36,490 nt of DNA from positions 1 through 36,490 of the IMG/VR virus record IMGVR_UViG_3300043431_000089; one strand, written 5' to 3'. The position numbers and the translations under genes were made by a program. The DNA comes from a virus. Positions 1,954 through 17,512 of this stretch are shown in pieces; positions within the stretch are counted from its first letter, which is position 1, and every line of letters begins with the position of its first letter. Below the pieces are notes generated by a model, which worked only from the letters and a program-made list of their open reading frames with translations, searched no databases and was not told the DNA's origin.

Positions 1954-2634
1954 TTATTTATTTTGTTTATAAAGTTCGTTTAAATATTCCCTACATTCTA
2001 ATATACGAATTTTCAACGCTTCAATTTTATCGTTGTCCTGTTTAACATTGAATTTCTTAACCCGTTTTTCTTTTGGTATATCATCAAAAATCATGTTCTT
2101 TTTTAATTCAACTATTGCTATTTGATACGTTGCATCATCTTCTGACATTACGCCCATTTTATAAAAAAGGCTTTTTTCTTCACGCTCAATTAAATGGTCG
2201 GGGCTGTTTACCAAGCAATATGCAATATCTAATTCTGATAATCCGGTAAGCCACATATAACCTAATGCTTGCCATTCGTTTGCTTTTGTTAGTTCGGCAT
2301 TAAAAAACGTGTGTATACTCCAGCTTGATTTAATGTCAATACCGTGCAGAATGTCAGGTGTACCACAAATAAAATCATTTTTAATTGGTGCGCCCTTATA
2401 TTTGATATAAAGTTTTTTATCAACCTCGCTCAATAATGAAATACTTGTTTCTTCAACCAGCGTTCCTTTTTCCATAAACTTGCTGTATATTTCGTTTGAG
2501 CGTTTGTACACTTTTGAAATATAACATTCATGTAAATACTTTTTACACGTTTCGCCAAGCTCGCCTTTTTTACGTCCATCGGTCATGATTAACGATAGCT
2601 GAGAACACCGAAATAGATACGTACTAAAATCCAT
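1954..2634 (-). CDS. RecB/YqaJ-like phage exonuclease
   Basis: A 226-residue nuclease of the PD-(D/E)XK superfamily. Counted from the ATG at 2634, the motifs are a glutamate in KGTLVEE (E61/E62), GTPD with D94, the core D100-I-K102, and the RecB-family QxxxY box at Q122-Y126 (WQALGYMW). The start MDFSTYLFRCSQL with a nearby KGELGETCK is typical of phage lambda-exo/YqaJ-like enzymes, which degrade one strand of double-stranded DNA so that the annealing protein can load on the other. The probable annealing protein is two genes downstream. I prefer the start at 2634, which overlaps the preceding gene by 11 bases. An ATG at 2673 would add 13 residues ahead of the usual domain start and increase the overlap. 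Confidence 0.78.
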   Translation of the reverse strand: MDFSTYLFRCSQLSLIMTDGRKKGELGETCKKYLHECYISKVYKRSNEIYSKFMEKGTLVEETSISLLSEVDKKLYIKYKGAPIKNDFICGTPDILHGIDIKSSWSIHTFFNAELTKANEWQALGYMWLTGLSELDIAYCLVNSPDHLIEREEKSLFYKMGVMSEDDATYQIAIVELKKNMIFDDIPKEKRVKKFNVKQDNDKIEALKIRILECREYLNELYKQNK

Positions 2635-2854
2635 GCTCTGAAAATTTAAACCGTAAATTATTAAGTGTTCCATTGGCCTTGTTTCTCTCTGTGATAAGGG
2701 CGCGAAGCGATTCGTTCGCCTGTTCTATTATTGATTGTGTGTCAATTATTTCCTGTGAAAGTTTGCAAACTTCTTCTTCTTTGTGTTTTATATCACAAAG
2801 CAAATCTTCGCGCAGGCTTTCCCTTTCTTCTGGGTCTAAAATAGTGTTTTGCAT
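2624..2854 (-). CDS. Small coiled-coil protein of unknown function
   Basis: A 76-residue protein, strongly helical and charged (EERESLREDLL, then KHKEEEVCKLSQEI), predicted as one coiled coil. I do not recognise a family. It directly precedes the exonuclease and overlaps its start by 11 bases, so the two are probably translationally coupled. The ATG at 2854 is chosen because a TACATTTG promoter element ends 25 bases upstream; a longer reading from a TTG at 2881 would start right at that element. Confidence 0.6.
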   Translation of the reverse strand: MQNTILDPEERESLREDLLCDIKHKEEEVCKLSQEIIDTQSIIEQANESLRALITERNKANGTLNNLRFKFSEHGF

Positions 2855-3030: not shown

Positions 3031-3250
3031 GTTTCTCGAAATAGGATTCAATAGCCATTATTTGTTTTGCTGTGGCACGTTTCTCCCTGAATATCGTTTG
3101 GATTGCGCTATAACTTAAATCGGTGTGTTTAGATAGCTTCTTTTTATCCCCGTGTTCAAGTGCCAGTTTCCACCGCCTAAGTACTGCCGGAAATATTCCT
3201 ATTCGTTTATCACGATAACGCATTGAGTATTTTTTTCTTTCTGCTTTCAT
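3014..3250 (-). CDS. Small helix-turn-helix DNA-binding protein
   Basis: A 78-residue basic protein. The N-terminal half is rich in Arg and Lys (YRDKRIGIFPAVLRRWK). The segment KKLSKHTDLSYSAIQTIFREKR looks like a helix-turn-helix, with a first helix, the turn LSYS and a recognition helix AIQTIFREKR. It resembles small phage Cro-like or regulator proteins, though it is short and the assignment is moderate. Its ATG overlaps the stop of the preceding gene by one base (TAATG). It could bind the palindromes in the divergence region at 5867-5912; that is an inference. Confidence 0.6.
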   Translation of the reverse strand: MKAERKKYSMRYRDKRIGIFPAVLRRWKLALEHGDKKKLSKHTDLSYSAIQTIFREKRATAKQIMAIESYFEKHEKKD

Positions 3251-3477
3251 TAGCTTAATTTTTTAGCTTGGTTAATTTGTCGGTTTGCAAGTATTAATGT
3301 GTACGCGTATTGCCTTGGTCGCATGGTTTGTTTATTACGTTCTTTCCAAATCTCGTATGCTTTAAGATAGCCGTGTTCGCGTGGCATGTTGCGATACGTA
3401 ACCACCTTCTTTTCAAGATTGAACTCGTTGCAAATAGCGTTGAGTTCTGGTAGTATTTTGCTTATTGGTTGGTTCAT
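3250..3477 (-). CDS. Small basic protein of unknown function
   Basis: A 75-residue protein beginning MNQPISKILPEL, mixed helical and basic toward the C-terminus (RPRQYAYTLILANRQINQAKK). I do not recognise a family. The ATG at 3477 is preferred: it lies 2 bases after the stop of a tiny membrane-peptide frame and is preceded by A/T-rich sequence. A longer reading to 3531 would begin with a hydrophobic stretch that is really the shadow of that peptide. It is coupled to the helix-turn-helix gene by a one-base overlap. Confidence 0.6.
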   Translation of the reverse strand: MNQPISKILPELNAICNEFNLEKKVVTYRNMPREHGYLKAYEIWKERNKQTMRPRQYAYTLILANRQINQAKKLS

Positions 3478-5540: not shown

Positions 5541-5837
5541 CTATTTAATACCGTGTTCTTTTTGGTGGCAATCAACGCATAAAACCTGTACATCTATTGG
5601 ATTCTCATCAAAAACGCGCTCATATGTTAAGTGGTGTACATGAAGGGCTGTTTTAAACCCGCTTATCCCACAAACTTCACATTTATGATTACGCTGGGCT
5701 TTTACCCGGTTCTTAAAGCTTTGCCATTTTTTAGATTTCAAATACCTGTGGTATTTTTCCTTGTGGGTTTCTTTTTGAAATAGCTTAGGGGCTTCTTTCT
5801 CGTCTTTAACAGCTACCCTTGATCTTAATAATTTCAT
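5541..5837 (-). CDS. HNH endonuclease
   Basis: A 98-residue HNH nuclease. A basic N-terminal helix region (YLKSKKWQSFKNRVKAQRN) leads to the zinc pair C53-x2-C56, then the HNH core LHVHHLTYERVF with H68/H69, N79, and the second zinc pair C87-x2-C90 with H91. This is the compact type found in many phages, often near the terminase, where it helps DNA packaging. Here it is the leftward gene nearest the divergence region, about 1.2 kb from the terminase on the opposite strand. The ATG at 5837 is chosen; the frame stays open to 5999, but that extension covers the operator-like palindromes and is cysteine-rich nonsense. Confidence 0.8.
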   Translation of the reverse strand: MKLLRSRVAVKDEKEAPKLFQKETHKEKYHRYLKSKKWQSFKNRVKAQRNHKCEVCGISGFKTALHVHHLTYERVFDENPIDVQVLCVDCHQKEHGIK

Positions 5838-5866
5838 TTTAACAAAAAATTTTTTACATACTTCGC

Positions 5867-5878
5867 TTATGCGCATAA
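5867..5878. promoter_or_regulatory. Perfect 12-base palindrome, possible operator
   Basis: TTATGCGCATAA, identical to its own reverse complement, 30 bases upstream of the HNH gene start and 40 bases before the rightward promoter. This is a plausible operator for a dimeric repressor, perhaps the helix-turn-helix protein at 3014-3250. There is no direct evidence of binding. Confidence 0.4.
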
Positions 5879-5892
5879 CACCATTACATCCC

Positions 5893-5912
5893 TGCATGCA
5901 CAAGCACATGCA
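5893..5912. promoter_or_regulatory. Inverted repeat upstream of the rightward promoter, possible operator
   Basis: TGCATG and CATGCA arms separated by 8 bases, ending 5 bases before the TTG of the promoter at 5918. Its position suits a regulator acting on that promoter. It differs in sequence from the palindrome at 5867-5878, though both carry GCAT or ATGC cores. Confidence 0.35.
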
Positions 5913-5917
5913 AAGTG

Positions 5918-5947
5918 TTGTGGATATTTCTTTTCTTATTATATTTG
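5918..5947 (+). promoter_or_regulatory. Bacteroidota-type rightward promoter in the divergence region
   Basis: TTG (5918-5920), a 19-base spacer, then TATATTTG (5940-5947): an exact match to TTG-N19-TAnnTTTG. Transcription would begin near 5954. No good coding frame follows before the terminator at 6255-6290, so it probably drives a non-coding RNA or a long leader of the late genes. Confidence 0.6.
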
Positions 5948-5953
5948 TAATAC

Positions 5954-6291
5954 TACTATGTATTACCTTTTTCTTTAAGAAAAGCTCTTTTCCATTCAAA
6001 GCCCAGTATTTTCCCCCGTCATCCTATGGGGCTATCGAGTGCTATTTGTGACTTAGCATGCAGGTCGGGGGTCGTCAGGTGTCGGACGTTGCTCCCTCTT
6101 TTCTCAATAGTGTCGGCTGAAGTTATCACAGCCTAAATCCAAGCGTAGTCTTTCGTTGACCGTTTTTAGTAACGGCATGGTGAAACAATTTTAATCCCAT
6201 TGAAAATGGTAAACTTTGGAGTGTGTGTAAGTGTGTTGTAATCATGTATTTAAAAAAGAAAACCCCAGTGTATCCTTCTGGGGCTTCTTTC
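5954..6291 (+). ncRNA. Candidate structured non-coding RNA or regulatory leader
   Basis: This fills the only gene-free stretch longer than 300 bases (5838-6410). It starts just after a consensus promoter and ends in a terminator. The middle (about 6010-6180) is visibly richer in G and C than its surroundings. It holds a row of perfect short hairpins: TGCTA/TAGCA (6040-6058), GGCTG/CAGCC (6115-6133), CCGTT/AACGG (6160-6175), CCATT/AATGG (6197-6209), then the terminator stem. The best reading frame is a doubtful 36-residue one near 6027. No tRNA cloverleaf or known riboswitch is apparent. It may be a regulatory RNA, or a leader used to control readthrough into the terminase operon. The ends are inferred. 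Confidence 0.42.
6255..6290. terminator. Rho-independent terminator, probably bidirectional
   Basis: The stem CCCCAG (6263-6268) and CTGGGG (6278-6283) has a 9-base loop, flanked by AAAGAA on one side and TTCTTT on the other, which extends pairing and gives T-rich tails in both directions. It closes the candidate RNA from the promoter at 5918 and separates it from the rightward coding operon. Confidence 0.7.
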
Positions 6292-6397
6292 TTTATAATA
6301 AATAGGCTTGCGCCTAAAACTATACTAACCAATGGATACTTAACAAACCTACATATTTTTATTTCATGTAAAACAACTGTTAAAAACATTTTTTTAC

Positions 6398-6405
6398 TAC
6401 TTTTA
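6398..6405 (+). promoter_or_regulatory. Weak candidate -7 element before the rightward operon
   Basis: TACTTTTA differs from TAnnTTTG at the last base; CTG lies 18 bases upstream in place of TTG. It sits just before the first ATG of the rightward operon at 6411. Some promoter is expected here because a terminator lies between this point and the promoter at 5918. Confidence 0.25.
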
Positions 6406-6410
6406 CATTA

Positions 6411-6488
6411 ATGCAACCAGATCGACAGGCACCAAGACCGCGTAAAAAAATCAAGCGTTCCATCAAAGTAACATCAACTAAAAAATGA
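6411..6488 (+). CDS. Possible 25-residue basic peptide, first gene of the rightward operon
   Basis: A tiny frame beginning MQPDRQAPRPRKKIKRSIK, with more than a third of residues basic. Its stop overlaps the next start as ATGA, the same coupling seen throughout the rightward operon, which is the main support. No family is recognised. It could be a leader peptide. Confidence 0.35.
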   Translation: MQPDRQAPRPRKKIKRSIKVTSTKK

Positions 6489-6763
6489 CCCAGCATATTT
6501 ACTACATAAATATTCGAACACTTCAGGTTAAAAAAGACGATGGAAAACGCCTTTTACAGCCCCACGAATGGGCAAAAGTAGCTAATGATAAAAATCATTT
6601 TATAACTTTATTCGTTAACTACATAATAGACAAAGGATTAGCACATAAAACATTCAATACCACAGCAAAAAAAGACATCATTCAGTTCATTAAAAATAAA
6701 AACAATAACCCCAAAATAGGCGCTGCCGGTGAGTTTGGACAACTAACACATTCAGAAAAATGA
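6485..6763 (+). CDS. Small protein of unknown function
   Basis: A 92-residue protein starting MTQHIYYINIRTLQVKKDDG, with beta-like N-terminus, central helices (ITLFVNYIIDKGLAHK) and a polar tail. I do not recognise a family. It opens the block of small genes just before the terminase and overlaps the membrane-protein gene downstream by ATGA. Its place immediately upstream of the small terminase subunit suggests a late or packaging-associated role, which is only an inference. Confidence 0.6.
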   Translation: MTQHIYYINIRTLQVKKDDGKRLLQPHEWAKVANDKNHFITLFVNYIIDKGLAHKTFNTTAKKDIIQFIKNKNNNPKIGAAGEFGQLTHSEK

Positions 6764-7011
6764 AAACATTAATAACTATTTTACTTATCGGTGTCGTTTC
6801 TGTTTCAGCTATTTTTATTATACAAACCGTTGTAAATCAGAATGGCAGAAAACAAAAAATCCAGCACGAACGCGAAAAACTTGCCAGAGAAATCAAACAA
6901 GATAGTATTCACAACGAAGGTGTTTTAACTTTCATGCGCTCAGGACTTTCAGAGCAAGAGGCTGAAATTCAGATGAATAAGATTGAACGTGAAGTAAAAG
7001 AAGGAAGATAA
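6760..7011 (+). CDS. Small membrane-anchored protein
   Basis: An 83-residue protein. Residues 1-25 (MKTLITILLIGVVSVSAIFI and following) form a single membrane helix or uncleaved signal anchor. The rest is a charged helical domain (KIQHEREKLAREIKQDS, then LSEQEAEIQMNKIEREV). It resembles an i-spanin or small anchored coiled-coil protein in build, but there are no neighbouring lysis genes to support that. It overlaps the small terminase gene by one base (TAATG). Confidence 0.58.
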   Translation: MKTLITILLIGVVSVSAIFIIQTVVNQNGRKQKIQHEREKLAREIKQDSIHNEGVLTFMRSGLSEQEAEIQMNKIEREVKEGR

Positions 7012-7472
7012 TGGCGTACAGTCAACAGGAAATTAATACGCTTTTTACACACATCTGTGATGAAATGTCTAAAGGCCGATCACTAAGGAGTGTTTTGCGA
7101 GATGAAGACATGCCTCATTCAGATACCTTTTACATTTGGGTTAATTCTGATCGACTCAAAACCGTACAATACGCGCAAGCCTGCGAGAAAAGAGCCGAGA
7201 AAATCTTCGAGGAAATGCTTAGTATTGCGGACGATAGCACGAACGACACGATGTATATTGAAACAAAAGGCGGTAAAGAAATTGAGGTTGAAGACAAAGA
7301 ATGGACTAATCGCAGCCGGCTCCGCATTGACACTCGTAAGTGGATGCTTTCCAAAATGATGCCTAAAAAATACGGTGATAAACTCGACATCACAACCGAT
7401 GGCGAAAAAATTGCAACCCCTGTTATAAAAATGCTACCACCATCAAATGGAGTTGAGCCAAAAACAGAGTGA
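7011..7472 (+). CDS. terS: Terminase small subunit
   Basis: A 153-residue protein of the Sf6-type small terminase family. The N-terminal half holds a helix-turn-helix-like DNA-recognition region (SLRSVLRDEDMPHSDTFYIWV). The middle has the characteristic QYAQACEKRAEKIFEEML helix, and the segment NRSRLRIDTRKWMLSKM is followed by PKKYGDKLD, a pattern I know well from this family. The protein recognises phage DNA and loads the large subunit to start packaging. It overlaps the large-subunit gene by 26 bases, the usual arrangement. Confidence 0.85.
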   Translation: MAYSQQEINTLFTHICDEMSKGRSLRSVLRDEDMPHSDTFYIWVNSDRLKTVQYAQACEKRAEKIFEEMLSIADDSTNDTMYIETKGGKEIEVEDKEWTNRSRLRIDTRKWMLSKMMPKKYGDKLDITTDGEKIATPVIKMLPPSNGVEPKTE

Positions 7473-8820
7473 TGCATGGCATTTACTTGAAGATAATAAA
7501 ACAACTGAAATACTTTATGGCGGTGCCGCGGGTTCAGGCAAATCAATGCTTGGTTGCCTTTGGCATATTTACAGGCGTACGAAATACCCCGGTTCACGCG
7601 GTTTAATAGGCCGGGCAAAGATTGCAAGGCTCGAAGAATCAACACTTATAACATTATTTGAAGTTGCTACAAGGCTCGGTTACAGGCGTGGAATTGATTT
7701 CAAATACAATGAACAGAAACACCGGATAAGTTGGAATAATGGAAGCGAAACACTATTAAAGGATTTATTTCTTTATCCTGCCGACCCTGATTTTACGTCC
7801 CTTGGCTCAACAGAATTTACAGATGCTTTTATTGATGAAGTGCCTGAAATAAGCCGCAAGGCTAAACAAATGGTAAGCAGTCGATTACGCTGGAAGATTA
7901 AAGAGTTTGGAATACAACCAAAGATATTAATGACGTGCAACCCTGCACCGGGCTGGGTAAAGGAAGATTATGTAATGAATAATGATGGCAAACCCGTTAC
8001 ACTAAAACCACACCAACAGTATATTCATGCAACCTTAAACGATAACCCTGACGAACACTTTAGAAACCTTTACGGCAAACAACTCGAATCACTAAGCGAC
8101 TACGACCGTAGAAGATTATTGTTTGGCGATTGGGACGCGCGGCCAGAAGTCACAAATCCGTTTGCCTTTCAGTATAACGAACAGAAACATGGTGACTGGC
8201 TTAACTATTGTGAACTTAAAAAGGATAAGGTTTTATACCTATCAATTGACTTTAACATTAACCCGTTTGCATTAACCGCATGGCATATTTGGGAAGATCA
8301 CCAAGGCGCCCATTGTTGGTGTGTTGATGAAATTGAAATAGATAATGGCGATATAAGAAAGATGTGTAATGAAATACAAGCGCGTTACGGACATTGGTTA
8401 CCAACGTGTTACATTACAGGTGACCCAATGGGCAAGCGTAGGGACATCGGGCAAATAGACCACGCGTCAAACTACCAACAGATTCAAAGGTATTTAGGAT
8501 TGATTGACCAGCAATTTGTTTTACCAGCAGCACCAACCCACGAAAATAGCCGGACTGATTTCAATTATATTTTGTTCTACCATCCAGACGTTCAGATTTC
8601 AAAGAAATGTGTGAACCTTCGAAGGGACTTACGTATAGTTGAAATAGACGCGTTCGGGCAAATTAAGAAAACTAACCGTTTACAAATCAGCCAACAAGCT
8701 GACTTTTTAGACACCGGCAGATATTTATTTAATACCTTTTTACGCGCATGGAAAGAAGATCATCAAAACAATTATTTGCCACTTATTGCCCGTGATACAC
8801 GCGAGCAAGAATATTTATAG
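7447..8820 (+). CDS. terL: Terminase large subunit
   Basis: A 457-residue packaging motor. The ATPase domain has Walker A GGAAGSGKS (25-33), Walker B FIDEV (D130, E131) and the coupling motif MTCNP (162-166). The nuclease domain, of RNase H-like fold, shows acidic residues D268 in LSIDFN, D326 in GDPMG, and a late Asp in the QQADFLDTGRY segment. The enzyme drives DNA into the prohead and cuts it. Length and motif order are complete. The start at 7447 fits MELSQKQSDAW, the usual beginning close to Walker A. Unusually, the portal gene is about 17.4 kb downstream rather than next door. Confidence 0.94.
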   Translation: MELSQKQSDAWHLLEDNKTTEILYGGAAGSGKSMLGCLWHIYRRTKYPGSRGLIGRAKIARLEESTLITLFEVATRLGYRRGIDFKYNEQKHRISWNNGSETLLKDLFLYPADPDFTSLGSTEFTDAFIDEVPEISRKAKQMVSSRLRWKIKEFGIQPKILMTCNPAPGWVKEDYVMNNDGKPVTLKPHQQYIHATLNDNPDEHFRNLYGKQLESLSDYDRRRLLFGDWDARPEVTNPFAFQYNEQKHGDWLNYCELKKDKVLYLSIDFNINPFALTAWHIWEDHQGAHCWCVDEIEIDNGDIRKMCNEIQARYGHWLPTCYITGDPMGKRRDIGQIDHASNYQQIQRYLGLIDQQFVLPAAPTHENSRTDFNYILFYHPDVQISKKCVNLRRDLRIVEIDAFGQIKKTNRLQISQQADFLDTGRYLFNTFLRAWKEDHQNNYLPLIARDTREQEYL

Positions 8821-16909: not shown

Positions 16910-17449
16910 ATGTCTAATTGCATTGATTACAATTGTTCAGATTTGGAAGATCATTTACTAAATGATTGCGGAGAAGAATTGCCCGGTGGTTCAAACCAAA
17001 TGGTGATTTTAGACTGTGACCACACGGTAACTGACCCTACCAATGGTACAACGATTAACGCTGATATTTCGGCAGGTCGTGCTATACTTGTGCGTAACGT
17101 TAAGATTGGAATGCCAGCGCCTTCACCGGTGACTGTACCATCAAATATTGCCAATCAAACGGACAAACTTGTAAACTATGACCGTTCTTTAACGCTGATC
17201 GATGGAAACATTAATGCTCAAAACATTTTGTTCTATCGCGCTTTGTTACAAGGCCGAACTATTGGAGGTATTATTTTCTATGAAGTTGATGCAAATCAAG
17301 TTACATGGATTGACGCTGCGATAAAAGCAACGGGCGGTCGGGTATTCCCTGATTCAAACATTGAATTTCAGCGCGTTGAAACTACCTTCACATGGAGGAA
17401 GCTGGATGAACCACAAGTTTATTCAACTCCTACCGGGGTGTTCTCGTAA
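16910..17449 (+). CDS. Probable major tail (tube) protein
   Basis: A 179-residue, beta-rich protein starting MSNCIDYNCSDLEDHLL. I call it the tail tube from its size, single compact domain with an extended loop (AILVRNVKIGMPAPSPVTV), its own leader, and the strong terminator right behind it, all typical of a highly expressed tube gene. The segment LVNYDRSLTLIDGNINAQN followed by LLQGRTIGGIIFYEV fits proteins annotated as structural in Bacteroidota phages. It lies downstream of the tape measure, whereas in most phages it lies upstream, so the order is unusual and the call is moderate. Confidence 0.55.
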   Translation: MSNCIDYNCSDLEDHLLNDCGEELPGGSNQMVILDCDHTVTDPTNGTTINADISAGRAILVRNVKIGMPAPSPVTVPSNIANQTDKLVNYDRSLTLIDGNINAQNILFYRALLQGRTIGGIIFYEVDANQVTWIDAAIKATGGRVFPDSNIEFQRVETTFTWRKLDEPQVYSTPTGVFS

Positions 17450-17460
17450 AGAACATGAAC

Positions 17461-17496
17461 AAAAAAAAGACCCTCGCCAAATGGTGGGGGTTTTTT
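17461..17496 (+). terminator. Rho-independent terminator after the tail module
   Basis: The stem CCCTCGCC (17471-17478) pairs with GGTGGGGG (17483-17490) around an AAAT loop, with two wobble pairs, preceded by eight As and followed by six Ts. It ends the tail transcript just before the sugar cassette. Confidence 0.85.
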
Positions 17497-17512
17497 ATTT
17501 AATTATTTTGTG

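Follow-up and report, generated by a model that had tools for sequence, protein, structure and literature searches.

Candidate control region with promoter, untranslated leader and terminator preceding the terminase operon of a likely Bacteroidota phage

Introduction

Which function has a stretch of phage DNA that carries a promoter and a terminator, with no gene on the same strand between them? This question is raised by positions 5918–6294 of the window, i.e., of the 36,490-base virus record that was analyzed here over its whole length. The original prediction, made from the letters alone, had proposed a structured RNA or an antitermination leader at this place. To our knowledge, late gene control in Bacteroidota phages has been little studied, and a limited literature search yielded no description of such a terminated leader. 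As outlined below, the parts of the region look like ordinary phage regulation, more so than like a new structured RNA.

Results and Discussion

Setting and Promoter of the Region

The left part of the window carries leftward genes and the right part a long rightward operon (Table 1). The region of interest lies in a divergence region of about 650 bases between the leftward genes and the terminase operon, which is the location given by the original prediction. The first genes of the rightward operon are two orphans encoding 92 aa and 83 aa. Cellulophaga phage phi10:1 and Flavobacterium phage 11b are among the named phages that match the large terminase best, which makes a phage host in the Bacteroidota likely.

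Table 1: Features of the window discussed in the text.
Feature	Position	Strand	Remarks
Exonuclease gene	1954–2673		Leftward, left part of window
HNH endonuclease gene	5541–5837	−	Leftward, borders the divergence region
Inverted repeat TGCATG-8-CATGCA, candidate operator	5893–5912	No strand	Just 5' of promoter
Bacteroidota sigma-A type promoter	5918–5947	+	TTG 5918–5920, N19, TATATTTG 5940–5947
Inverted repeat GTAATAC-6-GTATTAC, candidate operator	5947–5966	No strand	Spans predicted start site
Predicted untranslated leader RNA, ~340 nt	5952–6291	+	No plus-strand coding frame; ends deduced from promoter and terminator
Inverted repeat TTTTCTT-1-AAGAAAA, AT-rich	5969–5983	No strand	After predicted start
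Inverted repeat GAAAAG-2-CTTTTC, AT-rich	5979–5992	No strand	Overlaps repeat 5969–5983
GC-rich core of leader	~6000–6150	+	GC 0.52–0.56 versus 0.26–0.40 around
Perfect 5-bp hairpin TGCTA-9-TAGCA	6040–6058	+	
Perfect 5-bp hairpin GGCTG-9-CAGCC	6115–6133	+	
Antisense 87-codon frame, borderline	6126–6389	−	0.14 bits per codon; overlaps terminator
Perfect 5-bp hairpin CCGTT-6-AACGG	6160–6175	+	
Perfect 5-bp hairpin CCATT-3-AATGG	6197–6209	+	
Intrinsic terminator CCCCAG-9-CTGGGG, 6 bp	Hairpin 6263–6283, with tail to 6294	+	Followed by CTTCTTTCTTT
Possible 25-codon first frame of late operon	6411–6488	+	Start context weak
Rightward late operon start	6485–8820	+	Two orphan genes first
Small terminase, Sf6-type	7011–7472	+	Third gene, after the 92-aa and 83-aa orphans
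Large terminase, Terminase_3	7447–8820	+	

A perfect promoter had been claimed for this region, and TTG-N19-TATATTTG was indeed located exactly at 5918–5947. The element exhibits both hallmarks of a sigma-A promoter of this phylum, TAnnTTTG at −7 and TTG/TTTG near −33, with a spacing of 19. In flavobacteria the −7 box occupies positions −12 to −5 (PMC9723704). The promoter of the window also matches the consensus described for Bacteroides promoters (PMC7366714). From the fit to the Flavobacterium and Bacteroides consensus a transcription start at about 5952, some 5 nt 3' of the −7 box, is predicted. Three matches to the full pattern were counted in the window versus 1.37 expected, and 5918–5947 is the only perfect match in the divergence region (5838–6484), both strands considered. 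When one mismatch was allowed there, leftward promoters were the only additional ones.

The folding of both strands was scanned in stretches of 120 bases. The stretch 5881–6000 ranked first of 1,214 (z of −6.1 and −5.6), and 5945–5995 reached a z of −4.3 on the plus strand. The low values at 5881–6000 are caused by a cluster of inverted repeats. Hence the most pronounced fold signal in the window, which the original prediction had missed, comes from the inverted repeats at the promoter and not from the body of the RNA. The position of these repeats around the promoter and their equal strength on the two strands make operator-like protein binding sites in the DNA more likely than RNA structure.

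The Untranslated Leader and Its Terminator

The absence of a convincing coding frame was upheld for the plus strand, over about 310 nt after the promoter, by tests of codon use and start context. The plus-strand frames of the region scored −0.61 (36 aa at 6026), −0.20 and −0.12 bits per codon, compared with 0.01–0.39 bits per codon for real genes of this phage. The small frames, among them the one at 6058 and the 36-aa frame, whose possible translation near 6027 had been pointed out, were rejected on codon use and mostly poor start context. The minus strand contains an antisense frame of 87 codons that the original prediction did not consider. This frame is borderline; its codon score is reached by 5% of wrong frames, its start context lies in the 96th percentile, and a search for homologues of the 87-residue product found none. 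It is unlikely to be a gene.

The GC content of the leader core is among the highest 120-nt values of the window. The rise in GC is thus genuine at about 6000–6150, but the claimed extent of about 300 bases is too long, since GC values at 6150–6290 drop to 0.33–0.40, resembling the flanks. Exactly four perfect 5-bp hairpins, at 6040, 6115, 6160 and 6197, are present as described. Counting 5-bp stems and excluding the terminator, their number was matched by 0 of 300 shuffled sequences with loops of up to 10 and by 51 of 300 with loops of up to 8. The excess over shuffles disappeared on the plus strand when G-U pairs were allowed or 6-bp stems were used. Whether the hairpins exceed chance therefore depends on the loop limit.

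The RNA folding energy of the whole plus strand is ordinary (z of about −0.5), and parts of the core taken by themselves fold no better than shuffled sequence (z from −0.4 to +0.7). The minus strand folds somewhat better than shuffles (z of about −2). A search of the window with Rfam 15 gave no family above the gathering threshold and only chance-level matches at E values up to 10; the relatives L002–L009, including L003, gave nothing. ARAGORN detected no tRNA or tmRNA in the window. Beyond the terminator, the idea of a structured RNA thus found no support: the core folds no better than shuffles, no RNA family was recognized and no homologue was available for an analysis of covariation. The leader might still be a structured RNA of a novel type in Bacteroidota phages, acting for instance in cis as an RNA antiterminator or in trans as a late regulator, with no relative among the described families; this appears quite improbable.

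The terminator at 6263–6283 was confirmed, and on both strands. It displays the GC-rich hairpin and the U-tract of an intrinsic terminator, and it is a terminator in the minus direction too, with the tail TTTTCTTTTTT and the better U-tract. Within the window it represents the third strongest terminator-like site on the plus strand and the strongest on the minus strand. The top terminator-like hairpin of the plus strand (−17.2 kcal/mol), strong on the minus strand too, is found at 17468–17511, 3' of a gene ending at 17449. Pairing of leader segments with the terminator arms was no better than that of shuffles, and thus gives no indication of a classical attenuator switch.

Search for Homologues and Comparison with Related Phages

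No homologue of the region was detected by blastn and nhmmer in phage records, terminase loci and 32 whole phage records. The terminase loci comprised 80 large-terminase loci from IMG/VR, 80 large-terminase loci from bacterial genomes and 80 small-terminase loci from IMG/VR; the collections searched may omit records very near the window. A search of 395 genomes from the class to which a Flavobacterium host belongs, performed without a positive control, revealed no homologue, and an exact 18-mer pattern scan of IMG/VR gave no match. Close relatives were sought with the major capsid protein, the 92-aa gene and the HNH endonuclease as protein anchors, and none was found. The 8-mer GGTCGGGG, common to the window and L003, was dismissed as a chance match.

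The promoter element recurs in related phages. TAnnTTTG was counted on the operon strand in 27 gaps that precede terminase operons, namely those of the window and of 26 relatives. It was seen 19 times versus 8.9 expected, a number reached by none of 200 shuffles. Since the gaps were picked by a simple gene-calling script and include related phages, this enrichment is indicative and not strict; it favours a late promoter at this place. The commonest form of TAnnTTTG across the gaps is TATATTTG. Usually the element precedes the first gene by 10–115 nt. The distance is 15 to 61 nt in L192, L201, L206, L207, L209 and L128 (about 61 nt in L206 and L207), and L206, L207 and L210 align with the promoter of the window.

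A long non-coding interval between the element and the operon was observed in three phages, with 471 nt in the window (up to the 25-codon frame), 351 nt in L003 and 448 nt in L064. L003, whose small terminase is 50% identical, carries a TACATTTG element 351 nt upstream and a hairpin with TTTTTT just before the first late gene. In L064 a tRNA-Thr gene is located between the promoter element and the operon. Late promoter and operon are thus repeatedly separated by untranslated sequence, the content of which varies by phage. Most relatives have the element directly before the first gene and no terminated leader; such control is therefore not a general trait of these phages.

Genes for tRNA-Trp and tRNA-Leu are found directly 5' of the small terminase gene in L215 and L220 (both at 3342–3416) and in L262 and L266 (both at 3259–3331). 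The 34-base motif ATTTTTTTCATATTAATATTTTGTGATTTGGTGT is located in L003 at 3116–3149, just 5' of the terminator upstream of the late operon, and also in L183–L189 near 1501–1536. In the host order, 49 of 296 genomes gave matches, most of them due to this motif or a near-identical copy. In the seven cases that were read, a tRNA gene immediately precedes it and a terminator hairpin immediately follows, as in a conserved signal associated with terminators. L206 (3290–3420) and L207 (2610–2722) contain a large nested palindrome with arms formed by CAGTACGCATTACGTTGA and its complement, the inner sequences GGGACACCCCCC and GGGGGGTGTCCC, and further copies of AGTACGCATT. This palindrome, just upstream of the terminase promoter, is possibly a replication origin or a packaging element. 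On the minus strand of L008, at 2600–2710 just before the leftward operon, a T-run follows a long stem in which approximately CTCCCTTCCCGTAATTTCGCAC pairs with GTGAAATTATGGGAGGGGG, and many ACGTCC repeats lie to the right of this stem.

Possible Functions of the Region

We prefer to read 5918–6294 as the region that controls the rightward late operon of packaging and structural genes, composed of a late promoter and a terminated untranslated leader that is passed by read-through or antitermination. We put it forward tentatively, as a good possibility somewhat short of probable. A host sigma-A promoter would start the untranslated leader at about 5952, and the inverted repeats at promoter and start site may bind a phage or host regulator. 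About 330 nt further on, before the first well-supported gene at 6485, the leader would meet the intrinsic terminator. In one state transcription would stop there, with a short untranslated transcript as its product; in the late state RNA polymerase would pass the terminator, by antitermination, attenuation or incomplete termination, and enter the terminase operon. Simple incomplete termination could be sufficient for this read-through. Since the stretch from the terminator to the operon contains no further perfect promoter, late transcription from 5952 would in the simplest case have to cross the terminator. The better U-tract in the leftward direction and the many relatives that have no terminated leader count against leader control. 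The comparison of the leftward genes with PHROGs, which covered part of these genes, many of them orphans on a possibly incomplete contig, gave no antiterminator match. Of the antitermination leader in the original prediction, the order of promoter, leader and terminator before the terminase operon is borne out by the anatomy and by the relatives, and such a leader is the interpretation that fits best. No Q-like gene was found among the leftward genes compared.

The same anatomy might be that of a free-standing small RNA gene producing a trans-acting RNA of about 340 nt, with the late operon transcribed from another, non-consensus or phage-specific promoter. Promoter and terminator do bracket a GC-rich non-coding core, and tRNA genes occupy the same place in L064 and stand just before the small terminase gene in L215, L220, L262 and L266. 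However, this RNA would belong to no known family and folds no better than shuffled sequence, no homologue was found, and relatives use this promoter position for the terminase operon. We regard such a gene as rather unlikely. Transcription of the region in the opposite direction, as the 87-codon gene or as a long leader of the HNH operon, would agree with the codon score and start context of that frame, with the better folding of the minus strand and with the leftward U-tract of the terminator. But the 87-residue product has no homologue, its frame would run through the terminator, and the leftward promoters carry one mismatch, a quality matched or exceeded by 64 sites in the window. Such a leftward unit is very improbable.

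The palindromes at 5893–5992 could also serve as a DNA control element, i.e., as operators, a replication origin or a packaging site, and everything downstream would then be incidental spacer closed by a bidirectional terminator. This explanation, clearly unlikely in our judgment, agrees with the top fold signal on both strands at the promoter, and a large palindrome with repeated AGTACGCATT units is located just upstream of the terminase promoter in L206 and L207. A spacer would make the terminator superfluous, and a GC-rich spacer is unusual in an AT-rich phage. Packaging in Sf6 is of the headful type; the Sf6-type small terminase therefore indicates headful packaging and argues against a cos site. 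An HNH endonuclease adjoining the terminase can nevertheless act at cos, as in HK97, where the product of the HNH gene next to the terminase helps to cut cos (PMC10448857).

On the reading as a terminated late leader, the recurrent TATATTTG ahead of terminase operons, sometimes parted from them by a terminated leader or a tRNA, would provide a simple and testable picture, namely late expression from host sigma-A. The importance would be greater if read-through of the terminator needed a phage factor, because this would open a route to antitermination in this phylum.

Comparison with Known Systems

In phage lambda, Q enables RNA polymerase to pass the terminator that follows pR' (PMC6266700). 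The window shares with the lambda pR'-6S RNA-tR' arrangement the order of late promoter, untranslated leader, intrinsic terminator and late operon. It differs in its longer leader (about 340 nt), in phylum and promoter type and by having no recognized Q gene, Q-binding site or sequence kinship. The put-type antitermination leader of HK022 likewise goes untranslated and places hairpins before the terminators of a phage operon. The leader of the window shows no excess folding, and the two are likened by layout, with no similarity shown. A cos site of the HK97 type would lie between the HNH and terminase genes of a cos-packaging phage; such genes flank the region, but the small terminase of the window is of the Sf6 type, which points to headful packaging. 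The arrangement in L064 also has a non-coding RNA following the TATATTTG element ahead of the terminase operon; in L064 it is a tRNA, while the stretch in the window is not. Finally, compared with the sigma-A promoters of Bacteroidota (TTTG / TAnnTTTG), the promoter of the window is an ordinary member by sequence and exhibits no difference.
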